From: a virus
Length of the DNA stretch: 58,647 nucleotides
IMG/VR virus record: IMGVR_UViG_3300046170_000213
Coordinates: 1-58,647 of that record
Reading direction: 5' to 3' (one strand)
The translations under genes and the position numbers were made by a program. The notes under the pieces were generated by a model. The model was not told where the DNA came from. It searched no databases and saw only the letters and a list, made by a program, of their open reading frames with translations. Of the stretch, positions 44,212-55,203 are shown one piece after another; position 1 is the stretch's first letter, and the number at the start of each line of letters is the position of its first letter.

Positions 44212-44259
44212 AAAATCCTAGTTTAGATTAATTCTAAACTAGGATTTTGTTTTTTTTTT
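44212..44259 (+). terminator. Strong rho-independent terminator
   Basis: A perfect 16-bp stem (AAAATCCTAGTTTAGA, 44212-44227, with its complement 44233-44248) around a 5-nt loop, then G followed by ten T. Ends the transcript of the zinc protein. Confidence 0.85.
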
Positions 44260-44273
44260 GGGTGGGCCCTCCC
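44260..44273. repeat. GGGCCC palindrome, copy 2
   Basis: GGGTGGGCCCTCCC flanked by an 8-10 base T run on the left and an A run on the right, so the whole 30-base region is nearly self-complementary. It directly abuts the terminator T-run. One of five close copies of this element (41956, 44260, 44932, 44967, 45387). Confidence 0.7.
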
Positions 44274-44362
44274 AAAAAAAATAAGCGTTCGAGCCTAATT
44301 ATTTTCTTGTAAGATGTTCTAGGATTTGATAACTCTTATGAAACAATAAAGGAGAAATAAAT

Positions 44363-44784: not shown

Positions 44785-44931
44785 AATTTGGGCTAGTATA
44801 GGGCGCCTGGACATTTCTGGGCTATACTCTAGGTCGTGACGTGACTGGACTGCAGTGTCTCCTCGTTGATCGATTGGGAAGGAGATCGCCTATTGGCCAC
44901 TGGCCCAAATTAAATTTTTTTATTTTTTTTT
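44785..44931. other. Structured GC-richer intergenic DNA
   Basis: No convincing gene. Contains CTAGTATAG pairing with CTATACTCTAG (2-base bulge), a second short hairpin CGAT/ATCG, and a TTGGCCACTGGCCCAA near-palindrome, then a T-rich run into the next palindrome. The composition is distinctly less A/T-rich than the neighbouring genes. It could be a small RNA or part of the origin structure. Confidence 0.35.
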
Positions 44932-45001
44932 GGGTGGGCCCGCCCATAGTTCACAAGCTTCAAGCAGGGTGGGCCCGCCCAGTATCCTCAAGCCTGCAAG
45001 C
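44932..45001. repeat. Two GGGCCC palindromes with phased CAAGC repeats
   Basis: GGGTGGGCCCGCCC at 44932-44945 and again at 44967-44980. Each is followed at 8-9 bases by a pair of CAAGC boxes (44954, 44961; 44989, 44997) spaced 7-8 bases. A composite unit repeated in tandem, just upstream of a DnaA box. Confidence 0.7.
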
Positions 45002-45017
45002 TGTCAAGAAAATTATC

Positions 45018-45026
45018 TGTGGATAA
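45018..45026 (+). promoter_or_regulatory. Perfect DnaA box
   Basis: TGTGGATAA is the complement of the consensus TTATCCACA. It is followed by A/T-rich DNA and a near-match (TGTGGGATAA) at about 45042. In a phage this suggests recruitment of host DnaA or a borrowed binding site. Confidence 0.5.
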
Positions 45027-45053
45027 CTTAAATATTTTACTTGTGGGATAAAC

Positions 45054-45155
45054 TGGGACCTGCTATAGTAGCAGCAGGTTCATTGCTGGTTAACATGACT
45101 GCCACTTGTACTGACTACGGTTAGTAGCAATGGACCCTAACAACAGAAAGGACAT
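45054..45155 (+). promoter_or_regulatory. Hairpin-rich leader of the 45156 gene
   Basis: CTGCTA-TAG-TAGCAG hairpin, then CATTGCT (45081-45087) pairing with AGCAATG (45126-45132), extended by TTAAC/GTTAG. An AAAGGAC ribosome site precedes the ATG. No clear promoter seen. Confidence 0.45.
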
Positions 45156-45368
45156 ATGAGAACAGATAGAAAAAAAGACCTGGACATGTATTACAACGAC
45201 CACCTGAAGCTGCACATCATGCGTAGACTCATGCTGGTGAAAACTTGGTCCGAGATCAAGGGCATCCAGTCGGCTGTCTTTGAGGCCCTGGACCGGGAAG
45301 ACAAACTCGAGCAGGCTGAGCGCGAAGCGTTCGAAGCCTGGAAGAAAACTGGAGGAGAAAAGGCCTGA
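45156..45368 (+). CDS. Small charged helical protein, 70 aa
   Basis: MRTDRKKDLDMYYNDHLKLH, then RLMLVKTWSEIKGIQSAVFE and an acidic helix (ALDREDKLEQAEREAFEAWK). Entirely alpha-helical by eye. Base composition is clearly GC-richer than most of the genome, suggesting recent acquisition. Function unknown; it has its own terminator. Confidence 0.6.
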   Translation: MRTDRKKDLDMYYNDHLKLHIMRRLMLVKTWSEIKGIQSAVFEALDREDKLEQAEREAFEAWKKTGGEKA

Positions 45369-45385
45369 GGGCCTTTTCCCTTTTT
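45358..45385 (+). terminator. Rho-independent terminator overlapping the gene end
   Basis: AAAAGGCC-TGAG-GGCCTTTT stem followed by CCCTTTTT. The loop contains the TGA stop codon of the preceding gene. Confidence 0.75.
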
Positions 45386-45386
45386 G

Positions 45387-45453
45387 GGGTGGGCCCTCCC
45401 GTAAGGGGTCAAGCTTCAAGCTCGCAAGCGTTCAAGCTTGACAGGTTACAAGC
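45387..45453. repeat. GGGCCC palindrome followed by five CAAGC boxes
   Basis: GGGTGGGCCCTCCC (45387-45400), then CAAGC at 45410, 45417, 45425, 45433 and 45449, spaced 7, 8, 8 and 16 bases. It sits between the terminator and the ribosome site of the GP88-like gene. Confidence 0.7.
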
Positions 45454-45484
45454 TTTATATTATAAGATTTTATAGGAGATAATT

Positions 45485-46087
45485 ATGTTAAAAAAAGAAG
45501 CTAGAGAAATAACCGGCGGCCTAAGTAAGCCGTCAAAAATGCCAGGACCAGCGCATAACCTGCCGGCTCAGGCCTGCAAGACTGGCGCCAAGCTGGTGAA
45601 TGTGCCGGGGTCCGTATGTGCGGGCTGCTATGCCCTGAAGGGTCGATATAGATTTAACAATGTGCAGCAAGCATTGCAACGACGCCTGAAGGCGCTCGAG
45701 TCACCGCTGTGGGTTGAAGCTATGACAACTTTAATCAAGGGCCAGGACTGGTTCAGGTGGCATGATAGCGGCGACATCCAATCGATGGAGCACCTTAATA
45801 ATATTTTTAAAGTGTGCAAGCTCACGCCTGAAACCAAGCACTGGATGCCGACACGTGAGGCGCAATTTTTAAAAGATCTAAACCCTGAAGAGGTCCCGGA
45901 GAATTTAATAATTAGAATGAGTTCACACATGATTGACCAGGGACCAGTGAAGCAATGGCCCTGGACGAGTACAGTCACCAGCGGAAGCGGCAGGACCTGC
46001 CCGGCCCCTGAGCAGGGCAATGAGTGCGGCAGCTGCAGAGCTTGCTGGGATAGGTCGACACCAAACGTGTGCTATGGTAAACACTAA
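45485..46087 (+). CDS. GP88-like cysteine-rich phage protein
   Basis: 200 residues, with ribosome site AGGAGA. ITGGLSKPSKMPGPAHNLPA, then VCAGCYALKGRYRF and a C-terminal CPAPEQGNECGSCRACW motif. The Cys pattern and WFRWHDSGDIQSMEHLNNIF region agree with the gene product 88 family (mycobacteriophage and marine phages). At least seven Cys suggest metal or iron-sulphur binding. GC-rich compared with surrounding genes. Function is unknown to me; family assignment moderate. Confidence 0.7.
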   Translation: MLKKEAREITGGLSKPSKMPGPAHNLPAQACKTGAKLVNVPGSVCAGCYALKGRYRFNNVQQALQRRLKALESPLWVEAMTTLIKGQDWFRWHDSGDIQSMEHLNNIFKVCKLTPETKHWMPTREAQFLKDLNPEEVPENLIIRMSSHMIDQGPVKQWPWTSTVTSGSGRTCPAPEQGNECGSCRACWDRSTPNVCYGKH

Positions 46088-46089
46088 CC

Positions 46090-46296
46090 ATGGCCCACGA
46101 ATTCCGACATCCGAATTATTATAAAAAATTAAATGAAAAAATGCGCAAGCTCACAAGCTCTCAAGCTGGAGGCGACAAGCCTCCCAGCCCTGAGCCAAGG
46201 GTTCAAGCTTCAAGCCAGAGTTCACAAGCTCTAGGATCTGATGACCAGGGTACAAGCGCACAAGCCCTCTGTCCGGGTCACAAGCAACGAGGATAA
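46090..46296 (+). CDS. Short ORF running into the CAAGC array
   Basis: Starts 3 bases after the GP88 stop with MAHEFRHPNYYKKLNEKMRK, which looks like a real N-terminus in A/T-rich DNA. From residue 21 it reads through the repeats and becomes Ser/Gln/Pro-rich (LTSSQAGGDKPPSP). It overlaps the opposite-strand nuclease end by 146 bases. It may be a gene whose tail was replaced by the repeat array, or no gene at all. Confidence 0.35.
   Translation: MAHEFRHPNYYKKLNEKMRKLTSSQAGGDKPPSPEPRVQASSQSSQALGSDDQGTSAQALCPGHKQRG
46146..46285. repeat. Densest CAAGC array
   Basis: Ten CAAGC boxes on the plus strand at 46146, 46154, 46162, 46176, 46204, 46211, 46225, 46253, 46261 and 46281. Neighbour distances cluster at 7-8 bases or about twice that (14). 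Surrounding bases vary (TCA, TCT, TT, GCA), so this is not a simple microsatellite. Confidence 0.8.
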
Positions 46297-46516
46297 AAGT
46301 ATTTTTAGAATGTTTCACGTGGAAGGCTACCTGGTGAGGTGAAAAGCGTATTTTGTTACCCGATGTTACCTTCAGCTCCAATGTAAAAAAGTGCTCGTTA
46401 GGAGAATAAGCCAATAGATCGGGAGTCCCCAATAAGCTACGGTTTTCCAACCTATTCCATGAAATGTTTCTAACTTTCTTCTTAAGTTCACTGTATAATT
46501 TAGCCTCTGGTTTCAG
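46151..46516 (-). CDS. PD-(D/E)XK nuclease-like protein with unusual start and repeat-derived tail
   Basis: Core: LGTPDLLAYS (Asp), FFTLELKVTS (ExK) and NKIRFSPHQVAFHVKH, as in VRR-NUC/Holliday-resolvase-like nucleases. The frame is open from just after a TAA at 46535 with no ATG or GTG near the start of the domain. Candidates are CTG 46516 or TTG 46450. Because the conserved part EAKLYSELKKKVRNISWNRL lies before the TTG, I prefer the upstream start. The C-terminus (LKLEPLAQGWEACRLQLESL) is encoded by the CAAGC array. It likely cuts branched or repair-intermediate DNA. Confidence 0.55.
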   Translation of the reverse strand: MKPEAKLYSELKKKVRNISWNRLENRSLLGTPDLLAYSPNEHFFTLELKVTSGNKIRFSPHQVAFHVKHSKNTFILVACDPDRGLVRLYPGHQILELVNSGLKLEPLAQGWEACRLQLESL

Positions 46517-46534
46517 GTGGGTAACCTCAGCTGA

Positions 46535-46801: not shown

Positions 46802-47281
46802 ATGAGTCAAGATATTGTCGAAAAGAAGGCACAGCCACTTACAGATTTAACTGAGATGCAAAGAAGATTTTGCGAGTATCTTATCTTTAATGAAGGCAGG
46901 ACCACTCACCAAGATGCTGCCCTGCATGCTGGATACAGCCCGCAAAGAGCAAGAATAGAAGCGTCTGAGTTATTAAAGAATCCAAAAATACAAAGCTATT
47001 TAGCTAGAAGATCTGCAGAAATAAATAGATCATATGCTGTGACTAAACACAATTATGTTAGAAGACAGCAAGAATTATCTAGAAGATTAGTTGATGATGG
47101 TAAGATAAAAGATGCTTTAGGTTTTGAAACATTGATAGGTAAAGCTACAGGACAATTTAGTGAAACTAATTACAATGTAAATATTAATGCAACAGATATC
47201 AAAGAACGAGAAGAAGAAATTAGAAGACTCAAAGAGTTAAACGAAAAAAGAATTACAGATACAAAACTTCTTAAAGAGTAA
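46802..47281 (+). CDS. terS: Terminase small subunit
   Basis: 159 residues. LTEMQRRFCEYLIFNEGRTT, HQDAALHAGYSPQRARIEAS and LLKNPKIQSYLARRSAEINR form the HTH-type DNA-binding and oligomerisation core of Terminase_2-like small subunits; a Glu/Lys-rich C-terminal helix follows. It recognises phage DNA for packaging with TerL. It reads on the plus strand, opposite to and 5 kb from terL, which is unusual. No Shine-Dalgarno, so the message may be leaderless. Confidence 0.8.
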   Translation: MSQDIVEKKAQPLTDLTEMQRRFCEYLIFNEGRTTHQDAALHAGYSPQRARIEASELLKNPKIQSYLARRSAEINRSYAVTKHNYVRRQQELSRRLVDDGKIKDALGFETLIGKATGQFSETNYNVNINATDIKEREEEIRRLKELNEKRITDTKLLKE

Positions 47282-49829: not shown

Positions 49830-49986
49830 CTTCGTTATCCTCCTCTATTTCACCTTGAGAGTTGCACATACTACATTGCACAACAATTTGCTGTTCTTTA
49901 CTTGGCCACGCTACTTCCTTAACTACTTTTATATATCCGTTACCTTTGCAACGTGGGCAAATTTTAGTTTTTTTCGAGTTTTCCAT
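49801..49986 (-). CDS. DnaJ-type zinc-finger protein
   Basis: 61 residues. CPRCKGNGYIKV and CSMCNSQGEI are two CxxCxGxG-like zinc knuckles as in the DnaJ central domain. No J-domain. The end is acidic. Overlaps the RHH gene at its start by 23 bases. May act as a small nucleic-acid or protein-binding module. Confidence 0.65.
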   Translation of the reverse strand: MENSKKTKICPRCKGNGYIKVVKEVAWPSKEQQIVVQCSMCNSQGEIEEDNEDADKQGKSN

Positions 49987-50137
49987 TTAGTCTCTTAGCT
50001 TTCTCATTTACTAACAATGTTATTGTCTGAGAACGACTTATAGTCATCTCAGGAATCATAACTTTTCTTATCTTATCTATTTTATTATATGTATCTTTTG
50101 GTAGTGATACATTTTTATATTTGCTTATGTCTGTCAT
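49964..50137 (-). CDS. Ribbon-helix-helix DNA-binding protein
   Basis: 57 residues. YKNVSLPKDTYNKIDKIRKV is the ribbon strand and first helix, and TISRSQTITLLVNEKAKRL the second helix: the Arc/CopG pattern. It would act as a dimeric transcription regulator. Perfect AAGGAG ribosome site; TTGACA 5' of the gene. Located beside a divergent promoter region, which may be its own target. Confidence 0.6.
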   Translation of the reverse strand: MTDISKYKNVSLPKDTYNKIDKIRKVMIPEMTISRSQTITLLVNEKAKRLNGKLEKN

Positions 50138-53016: not shown

Positions 53017-54873
53017 TTAACCATGTATTTCACCCCAGTTATCACCATACTCATAGTCAACTTTGTTAGGGACCTCTAGTGTAACAGCGTGTTCCATAAT
53101 TTCAACAATCTTTTTAGCATGTGCTTCATCTTGAACAGATATATCTAGCTCATCATGTACTTGTATGTGAGGTATAATTCCTTCTTTGTATAATTCCAAC
53201 ATTGCTTTCTTGGTCATGTCAGCAGCCTGAACCCTGATTAATTTGTTAAGAGCCTTGTATGTATAAGCTCTTTTTATCCCCGGTCCATGTTCCGCCAACG
53301 CATCTTCATGAGTCATAGCTTTGTGCATACCGAAACTGTTAGGTTCCCATAAGTGAAACCTGCATAGTCGTCCCAGCAATGTACGGATTTGTCCACGATC
53401 TTGTGCTCTATTTGATGCCTTGTCCATAAGTTGTTTTACGAATGGTACACGTGAATGGTATGTATTAAATAGGTCAGCAGCTTTGTCCTTTGTTACCCCT
53501 AATTCTGCCTGTAATTTACCTTTACCCATACCATAGAAAAGACCCAAATTGATCGTTTTAGCCTGTGTTCTAGGTATGTCAGCCATATCTGCTACGGTCT
53601 GGTGAAAGTCTGCGCTAGAGTCGTTTGTATAAGCATCTATTACATCATATACAGATGGTAATTTGTATAAAGAAGCATAATGCACTACCAACCTAGGCTC
53701 TTGCTGAGAATAGTCAAAACAACCCCATGTATGGCCCTCCTCGGGTATAAATAATGACCTTATCTTAGGTCCAAGGTCTTTGTTTCGTGCAGGAATCTGC
53801 TGAAGGTTAGGGTTCTGATAAGAGAACCTACCAGTAACCGTACCACCTCCAGCATTCCTTAACTGATTTATCTCTGCATGTATTCTACCATTATGCTCGT
53901 AGCTTATAATAGAATCTAAAAAAGTTGTGTGTGCTTTGTTTATCTCTCTTGCTTGTGCAATCATATTAACAACAGGGTGCTCGTGTTCTTGTAAAAAATT
54001 TTTTGTAAAAGAAGGTGCCTCTGTTTTATCTGTTCTTGGATACTCTAATCTCAACATATCAAAAACTTCTGCAACAGATCTTGCTGCCCATATTTGAGTA
54101 TCAATATTTGTCTCGCCTTTTATCTTATGTAATAGGTCCTGTTCTGCTTTCTTAAATTCTTTTTTCATTTTGTGTGCACGTTCTACATCTACTCGTACAC
54201 CTTTGAATCTCATGTCAACAAGACATGGAAACAAATCAGACTCCAGGTCAAATATATCTTCTAAGTCCTGGTTAATAATTTCTTTTTTCATCTCTTGCCA
54301 AAGACCAAGGGTTACTTCAGCATCACGTTCAGCGTACGCACCAACATGCATTGATGGTAGTTTGTACATTTCTGATTTAGGATTGATTCCCCATTCTGCT
54401 GCAGCTTCTGCAAGTGCAGATTCGTTTTTACCATAACCAAGATAGTGCCATGATAAACTATTTAAATCGTATCTAAATCTATTTTCATTAGTCACAGCTG
54501 CCGCTATCATTGTGCAGGCTATGTTACCATTTATTTTGAAACCTAATGCTCTTAACCAACAAACATCATAGATAGCATTGTGAAAAACTTTTGTTGATGG
54601 TGCCTCTAATACATCTTTAAGCCAAGACAAAACTTTAGCTCTGTCCATATTACCACCACCTTCGTGAGCAATTGGAAAGTAGCCTTTGTAATGACTGGTT
54701 GCAACTGCAATACCTATAACATCACCATTACCAATAACAGAACCAGATCCTTTTTTAATTAGGTCAGGGTCTTTTGTCTCTAAGTCAATTGCTATTTCAT
54801 CTACATGACGTAGGTCAGGAAATTCTGTAGGCTTTAACCATTCGGTAGGCGCTTCAAATCTAGGTATCTTCAT
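53017..54873 (-). CDS. polA: Family A DNA polymerase with 3'-5' exonuclease, Leu762 type
   Basis: 618 residues, intact. Exonuclease: D30-x-E32 (AIDLETKD), FHNAIYDVCW and YAERDAEVTLG. Polymerase: GRFSYQNPNLQQIP, motif A DYSQQEPRL (D387), O-helix R435, K439, L443, Y447 in RTQAKTINLGLFYG, and motif C HDE (573-575). By alignment L443 stands at the place of E. coli Phe762. It should synthesise phage DNA with proofreading; no 5'-nuclease domain. Coupled by ATGA to the small upstream gene. Confidence 0.95.
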   Translation of the reverse strand: MKIPRFEAPTEWLKPTEFPDLRHVDEIAIDLETKDPDLIKKGSGSVIGNGDVIGIAVATSHYKGYFPIAHEGGGNMDRAKVLSWLKDVLEAPSTKVFHNAIYDVCWLRALGFKINGNIACTMIAAAVTNENRFRYDLNSLSWHYLGYGKNESALAEAAAEWGINPKSEMYKLPSMHVGAYAERDAEVTLGLWQEMKKEIINQDLEDIFDLESDLFPCLVDMRFKGVRVDVERAHKMKKEFKKAEQDLLHKIKGETNIDTQIWAARSVAEVFDMLRLEYPRTDKTEAPSFTKNFLQEHEHPVVNMIAQAREINKAHTTFLDSIISYEHNGRIHAEINQLRNAGGGTVTGRFSYQNPNLQQIPARNKDLGPKIRSLFIPEEGHTWGCFDYSQQEPRLVVHYASLYKLPSVYDVIDAYTNDSSADFHQTVADMADIPRTQAKTINLGLFYGMGKGKLQAELGVTKDKAADLFNTYHSRVPFVKQLMDKASNRAQDRGQIRTLLGRLCRFHLWEPNSFGMHKAMTHEDALAEHGPGIKRAYTYKALNKLIRVQAADMTKKAMLELYKEGIIPHIQVHDELDISVQDEAHAKKIVEIMEHAVTLEVPNKVDYEYGDNWGEIHG

Positions 54874-55025
54874 TCGTCCTCTTCCTCTCTTTGTTTCTTT
54901 TCTTCTTCAAAACCTTCCATTAGTTCTTCATGTAAAGTTTTTTCTTTTTTAAATATTTCATCAAAACGTTTACGATAAGTATCGTTAGAAGGTCTTGATC
55001 TACCGTCAAACTTTTCTTTTTTCAT
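54870..55025 (-). CDS. Small charged protein, 51 aa
   Basis: MKKEKFDGRSRPSNDTYRKR, then a Glu/Lys-rich helix ending EEEKKQREEEDE. The DGRSRPSNxxYRKRFDxIF block is a small conserved family next to PolA in marine phages. Overlaps the polymerase start (ATGA). Confidence 0.6.
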   Translation of the reverse strand: MKKEKFDGRSRPSNDTYRKRFDEIFKKEKTLHEELMEGFEEEKKQREEEDE

Positions 55026-55203
55026 AAATATATTTATCTTCTATTAATTTATTTAATTCTTCTTTATTTGAAAAAGCATACAAAGCAGCATGGTGATCTT
55101 TTGGAAATATTTCCCAACTAACTAGCCTTGGATAAATTTCTAAATCAAATTTATATTTCTTATCTACTACAATACTTTTATTTATTTTTGATTTTTTTGG
55201 CAT
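55006..55203 (-). CDS. Hypothetical protein, 65 aa
   Basis: MPKKSKINKSIVVDKKYKFD, then LVSWEIFPKDHHAALYAFSN, a small alpha/beta protein. Overlaps both neighbours. No family recognised. Confidence 0.5.
   Translation of the reverse strand: MPKKSKINKSIVVDKKYKFDLEIYPRLVSWEIFPKDHHAALYAFSNKEELNKLIEDKYIYEKRKV

Follow-up and report, generated by a model that had tools for sequence, protein, structure and literature searches.

Why should a short box, CAAGC, recur in phase and in one orientation between the terL and terS genes of a phage, and what might read it? The question is raised by IMG/VR virus record IMGVR_UViG_3300046170_000213, which was analyzed here as one stretch of 58,647 nucleotides (hereafter ‘the window’). 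Phages of the HTVC023P/HTVC027P type are widespread SAR11 viruses, and the early genes of HTVC027P are without assigned functions (PMC12753301). With a defined cis element, a candidate reader, and a pair of target promoters at hand in a phage that can be cultured, transcriptional control would be open to direct test. The arrays would also be an example, in phages, of a single operator motif conserved at steps of either 7 or 8 bp.

Three clusters of phased boxes

The boxes form three clusters, all on the + strand. Cluster A (44954–45001) has four boxes, starting at 44954, 44961, 44989, and 44997 (spacing 7, 28, and 8 bp), with the palindrome GGGTGGGCCCGCCC sitting between boxes. Cluster B (45410–45453) has five, starting at 45410, 45417, 45425, 45433, and 45449 (spacing 7, 8, 8, and 16 bp). 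Cluster C (46146–46285), which is without a promoter, has ten, the first starting at 46146 and the last at 46281 (spacing 8, 8, 14, 28, 7, 14, 28, 8, and 20 bp). Together with four isolated boxes inside the gene for a GP88 family protein, these 19 boxes bring the count at 44.8–46.3 kb to 23, versus 0.3 at the frequency seen elsewhere in the window. The G+C content of the array segment is about 0.50, versus 0.367 for the window.

A first-pass annotation, made from the letters alone, had placed each of its CAAGC copies exactly, and its description of more than 20 copies phased at 7–8 bp, on one strand, with a short box kept and the bases between boxes variable, agrees with our reading; one GCTTG, at 45436, overlaps a CAAGC box via the palindrome CAAGCTTG. 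Its distances of 7–8 bp hold as well, but the longer ones, given as about 14–16 bp, are mainly 14 and 28 bp, plus 16 and 20 bp. Gaps of 14 and 28 bp are what would be seen if units in between had a degenerate box.

Both the counts and the phasing go beyond shuffled sequence. In dinucleotide shuffles (2000 per cluster), the maxima were 3, 2, and 5 boxes for A, B, and C, respectively, and never reached the observed 4, 5, and 10; neighbor pairs at 7 or 8 bp numbered 9, versus 2.0 under random placement (0/20000). Across the whole window, CAAGC is counted 101 times versus 105 expected. Because there is no enrichment overall, the signal is local, and the count per kilobase that had been suggested as a check gives an excess at 44.8–46.3 kb, but not window-wide.

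Conservation of box and step in relatives

With the GP88 protein as the sole query, 80 IMG/VR loci were fetched, and 78 loci were examined, namely 76 from IMG/VR with a complete GP88 and two GenBank phages. At least seven CAAGC boxes, in the same orientation, are found downstream of GP88 in all 78 of these GP88-chosen loci, with boxes upstream too; the boxes are thus kept in relatives. A blind scan of IMG/VR DNA for four CAAGC units at 7 bp gave at least 120 loci, and 114 among the matches listed encode GP88 or TerS of HTVC027P-type phages; in most of the matches listed, TerL, GP88, the nuclease, and TerS surround the array. The reversed-motif control, CGAAC, gave 99 loci, which are scattered. 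Among 123 dereplicated loci with full flanks—which, like the blind-scan set and unlike the GP88-query set, include loci chosen by pattern—phased clusters are present at C in 119, at A in 90, and at B in 81, versus 0 or 1 for seven control pentamers (GCTTG included).

The search for the array near GP88 and nuclease genes in other phages, as the first-pass annotation had proposed, therefore finds it across HTVC027P-type phages, in which the array neighborhood comprises TerL, a small ORF, GP88, the nuclease, and TerS. The GP88 genes of HTVC033P, Seuss, CRP-125, and CRP-603 are without the array, as is the related nuclease gene of DSL-LC04. The HTVC023P clade has terS and terL and no array in 21/21 loci. 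In the literature outside subscription journals, no description of CAAGC arrays was found.

Neighbor spacing in 185 dereplicated loci is 7 bp (1419 cases), 8 bp (430), 6 bp (11), or 9 bp (8), with lag peaks at 14, 21, 28, 35, 42, and 49 bp. Runs of five units at exactly 7 bp occur in HTVC027P; the longest run in the window is of four units, with 7- and 8-bp steps.

Promoters and a candidate reader

Many of the upstream clusters have a sigma70 promoter at their end, and in the window the cluster that does so is B, for GP88. This sigma70-type promoter (45438–45466, +) is fused to a box and has TTGACA at 45438–45443 and TATAAG at 45461–45466, separated by 17 bp; a strict promoter scanner demands a final T in the −10 element, so that the B promoter goes unlisted. 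The GP88 family protein itself (45485–46087, +; 200 aa; PF17338, Pfam E 5.7e-30) corresponds to HTVC027P gp33. No clear promoter is joined to cluster A of the window; behind this cluster is a small ORF of 70 aa (45156–45368, +), in the position of HTVC027P gp34 and without a family match in searches of Pfam and PHROGs.

The fusion of box and promoter recurs in relatives. TTGACA, counted with at most one mismatch, follows the first base of a box by exactly 5 bp in 159/1421 boxes upstream of GP88, versus 2/1995 downstream of GP88 and 3/514 distant boxes, and distant sequence totaling 680 kb holds two copies of CAAGCTTGACA (at most one mismatch). The consensus of 161 aligned sites in relatives is CAAGC-TTGACA-N17-TATAAT, with further boxes at −7, −14, and −21, and clusters A and B of HTVC027P both terminate in CAAGCTTGACA. 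The reading of A and B as a tandem operator or upstream element is well supported. A GP88 transcript started from the B promoter would not include array B, a point in favor of DNA binding. During HTVC027P infection, gp33 (GP88) and gp34 form a temporal expression cluster of their own, high at 6–9 h (PMC12753301); the genes of that expression cluster are, in our analysis, exactly those behind B and A. The window-type promoter carries an additional box within the −35/−10 spacer, which would suit repression, and the types with upstream boxes only would also allow activation.

Several other features were seen beside the clusters. The leader of the 70-aa ORF (45077–45137) may form a long hairpin (GGUUCAUUGCU/AGCAAUGGACC; −23.4 kcal/mol, z −1.7), and HTVC027P and 023Pt_psg01 have other stems at a similar place; a search of relatives for such leaders, for covariation, returned none. 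Rfam gave nothing convincing in the window, from which RF02976 (Flavobacterium-1 RNA) is absent; that family matches HTVC027P directly upstream of cluster A (L004:4549–4669, E 6e-16) and two pelagiphage-type genomes (L193:3473–3594, E 2.5e-17; L163:2151–2276, E 5e-9). The quasi-palindrome GGGTGGGCCC(G/T)CCC stands beside the clusters at 44258–44275, 44931–44946, 44967–44982, and 45383–45398, is also present in relatives, and has a similar form in 023Pt_psg01; its first copy (44258–44275) has T and A runs on either side and resembles a bidirectional terminator.

As for the reader, we put at about even the chances that A and B are operator or upstream elements of sigma70 promoters read cooperatively by a small RHH-like protein. 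This candidate binder (49967–50137, −; 57 aa; stop codon 49964–49966) is the ortholog of HTVC027P gp21 and has the sequence MTDISKYKNVSLPKDTYNKIDKIRKVMIPEMTISRSQTITLLVNEKAKRLNGKLEKN. Its layout and that of gp21, a short basic strand followed by two helices, is the sequence pattern by which both become RHH candidates; an RHH protein had been among the binders suggested in the first-pass annotation, and the genome thus has a predicted gene for one. An AlphaFold model of the 57-aa monomer (mean pLDDT 78) has helices at 14–27 and 35–49, and no identifying match was obtained in Pfam, PHROGs, PDB sequences, or Foldseek. The putative DNA-contact strand (K6–L12) is 78–98% conserved; for helix positions, the figure is often 30–60%. 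No CAAGC cluster lies at the RHH-like gene in a scan of the window, which argues against autoregulation through the boxes.

The RHH-like gene occurs in many array loci that extend far enough. Array-bearing long records of the family give matches of at least 77 bits, and the HTVC023P clade and DSL-LC04, both without arrays, give weak matches or none, a co-occurrence that mostly contrasts two clades and is confounded by ancestry. One locus (G020) has an array, close to the contig end, and no RHH-like match; 023Pt_psg01 has a diverged RHH-like protein (77 bits) together with diverged GAGC/CGAGC repeats. Spacing class (only 7-bp steps, both 7- and 8-bp steps, or mostly 8-bp steps) tracks RHH subtype with few exceptions, such as L162, in which the spacing is 7 bp despite an RHH subtype of the 8-bp group. 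On trees, spacing class takes four changes each for RHH, TerS, and the nuclease, versus ten for GP88, which is thereby ruled out as the determinant of spacing. The distance correlation with spacing class is strongest for TerS; nearest neighbors give 65 (RHH) versus 62 (TerS) of 67, and partial Mantel tests did not separate the two. Our preference for RHH over TerS comes from precedent, from the fusion of boxes to promoters, and from the HTVC023P clade, and not from covariation.

The precedent is the omega/ParB protein of pSM19035, an RHH protein that binds, in a left-handed spiral, 7–10 consecutive repeats of 7 bp, which are non-palindromic and overlap promoters (PMC9499535). Like these, the phage units are consecutive, non-palindromic, and 7 bp long, with at least four in a row; the arrays reach into or adjoin promoters of genes that they would regulate, at several sites per replicon; and a putative small RHH-like protein is encoded in the same genome. 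Unlike the omega unit, WATCACW, the phage core is CAAGC, its orientation is always the same, its mixed 7/8 steps are looser than omega heptads, and it belongs to a phage, not a plasmid. Given the position of the upstream arrays at sigma70 promoters of GP88 and the small ORF, and with no ParA (PF13614) found in the window, the initiator or partition role that the first-pass annotation had proposed is not sustained. We therefore liken the arrays to omega heptads at the level of DNA anatomy and do not claim membership. Judged by co-occurrence, strand conservation, and this analogy, the binder is most likely the candidate RHH protein.

The cooperative RHH repressor MetJ, of host metabolism, reads met boxes, which are tandem 8-bp near-palindromic operator units. 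Tandem operator units with cooperative RHH reading are what we propose here too, whereas CAAGC units are asymmetric and mostly 7 bp. Intergenic heptamer direct repeats are likewise known as the TAACTGA heptamers of Beggiatoaceae (PMC4679880) and the heterogeneous heptamers of Xanthomonas/Nostoc (PMC4692102), for which a regulatory role has been proposed or tested; those are genome-wide and largely of like units, whereas the phage boxes have differing spacers and three fixed places.

Under RHH reading, each cluster would be an array of binding units, 7 bp or sometimes 8 bp long, that share an invariant CAAGC core, each unit taking one RHH dimer on what we infer to be double-stranded DNA. The protein would fill A and B cooperatively up to the −35 box, and this filling would modulate sigma70 transcription of the small ORF and GP88, in whichever direction regulation runs, giving both genes their own timing. 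Cluster C, a promoterless coding sequence between convergent genes, would probably be loaded with the same protein and serve as a reservoir or as a looping partner for B.

Cluster C and alternative readings

Cluster C forms the last codons of a gene for a small PD-(D/E)XK-like nuclease on the opposite strand (46151–46528, −; start codon uncertain). The first-pass annotation had recognized this double use of the array and its overlap with coding DNA, both of which stand; its view of the array as having invaded or been captured by that DNA is not supported, the overlap being common to relatives and no donor or empty site being visible. Its VRR-NUC label was not confirmed either, the profile matches being Hjc in Pfam (sub-threshold only) and phrog_2165 and phrog_93 in PHROGs. 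Nuclease identity is about 45–60% in most relatives. A small ORF of 68 aa on the + strand (46090–46296), which matches HTVC027P gp32 (phmmer E 2e-4) and starts like it with MxHxFxHPxxY, also runs through the cluster.

In 50 close relatives, conservation in cluster C is 0.94 for box columns versus 0.79 for non-box columns (P 7e-8). Within C, the third positions of nuclease codons give 0.97 in boxes versus 0.73 outside them (P 6e-6), with 0.70 in the rest of the nuclease gene. The 68-aa ORF does not explain this contrast because it overlaps box and non-box columns alike. Selection on cluster C acts at the nucleic-acid level.

Two further observations concern this neighborhood. A parS-like TGTTTCACGTG(A/G)AA inside the nuclease gene (46311–46326 in the window; about 5996 in HTVC027P) probably represents codons for a conserved FHVKH motif and not a ParB site. 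HTVC027P gp30, named ArfA (PMC12753301), is located between the array and terS (L004:6478–6654); a weak gp30 match in the window, at 54873–55040, is about 8 kb off and on the other strand.

The arrays, C above all, might instead be a pac region, with a ring-shaped TerS wrapping the phased boxes and starting packaging, a reading that we consider possible, if unlikely. The terminase small subunit gene (Terminase_2; 46802–47281, +; PF03592, E 3.3e-13) is well placed for it: terL and terS flank the clusters, C has the nuclease and terS beside it in almost every relative, spacing class tracks the trees of TerS and RHH equally well, and the pac of SPP1/SF6 has direct repeats near terS as well (PMC4737164). 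Unlike those repeats, however, the CAAGC arrays are promoter-linked, strictly 7/8 phased, and absent from the TerS-bearing HTVC023P sister clade, which has terL too; the promoter fusion of A and B would be unexpected for a pac site, and the second helix of the TerS HTH is variable, whereas the box is constant. Quite unlikely, in our estimate, is a scheme that joins packaging to RHH reading, in which one RHH protein would form a cooperative filament on A, B, and C and loop them, an early-to-middle switch in GP88 expression would be coupled to a later role of C in packaging beside terS, and the whole would be a centromere-like operator for transcription and packaging.

It is improbable that the boxes act in RNA, as CAAGC in GP88 transcript leaders or 3′ ends bound by an oligomeric RNA-binding protein. 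Such binding is familiar from TRAP, which binds spaced triplets in RNA, and would agree with the presence of every box on the GP88 sense strand, with the tolerance of 2- or 3-nt spacers, and with the position of C at the 3′ end of the GP88 mRNA; the promoters, however, start at the end of A and B, outside whose own transcripts the arrays then fall. Decidedly improbable is an origin of replication whose iterons an initiator would bind: phased direct repeats do occur here, within the longest + strand block and with gene blocks of opposite orientation to either side, but no initiator gene was recognized in this sequence, and the repeats are split into promoter-linked clusters.

Hardly credible is a functionless heptameric simple repeat from polymerase slippage. 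In its favor, CAAGCNN is very abundant in some gammaproteobacteria (431 versus 0 for the control in G013), and bacterial genomes have an excess of heptameric repeats (PMC4692102). Against it, phage spacers are identical to their neighbor in 36/828 cases, fewer than expected by chance (57 in within-run shuffles, 0/2000), versus 620/691 for bacterial CAAGC heptads (a set picked with a five-unit pattern); steps of 8 bp, common in phages, are rare among the bacterial heptads (4 vs 863); and places, strand, and third codon positions are all kept. Since neighboring spacers are seldom identical, the phage arrays are not slippage satellites, an origin that the spacer statistics reject; core and step are maintained while the spacer drifts or stays diverse.

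The bacterial CAAGCNN heptads (L631–L636 and G001–G014) are themselves very abundant in Pseudomonas, Halomonas, Alcanivorax, and one Vibrio, with tens to 431 matches per genome and a control near 0. No relatives of the RHH-like protein were found in these CAAGC-heptad-rich gammaproteobacteria at E 0.01. In Alcanivorax, CAAGCNN heptads often stand, inverted, at the ends of a MITE-like element some 150 bp long.
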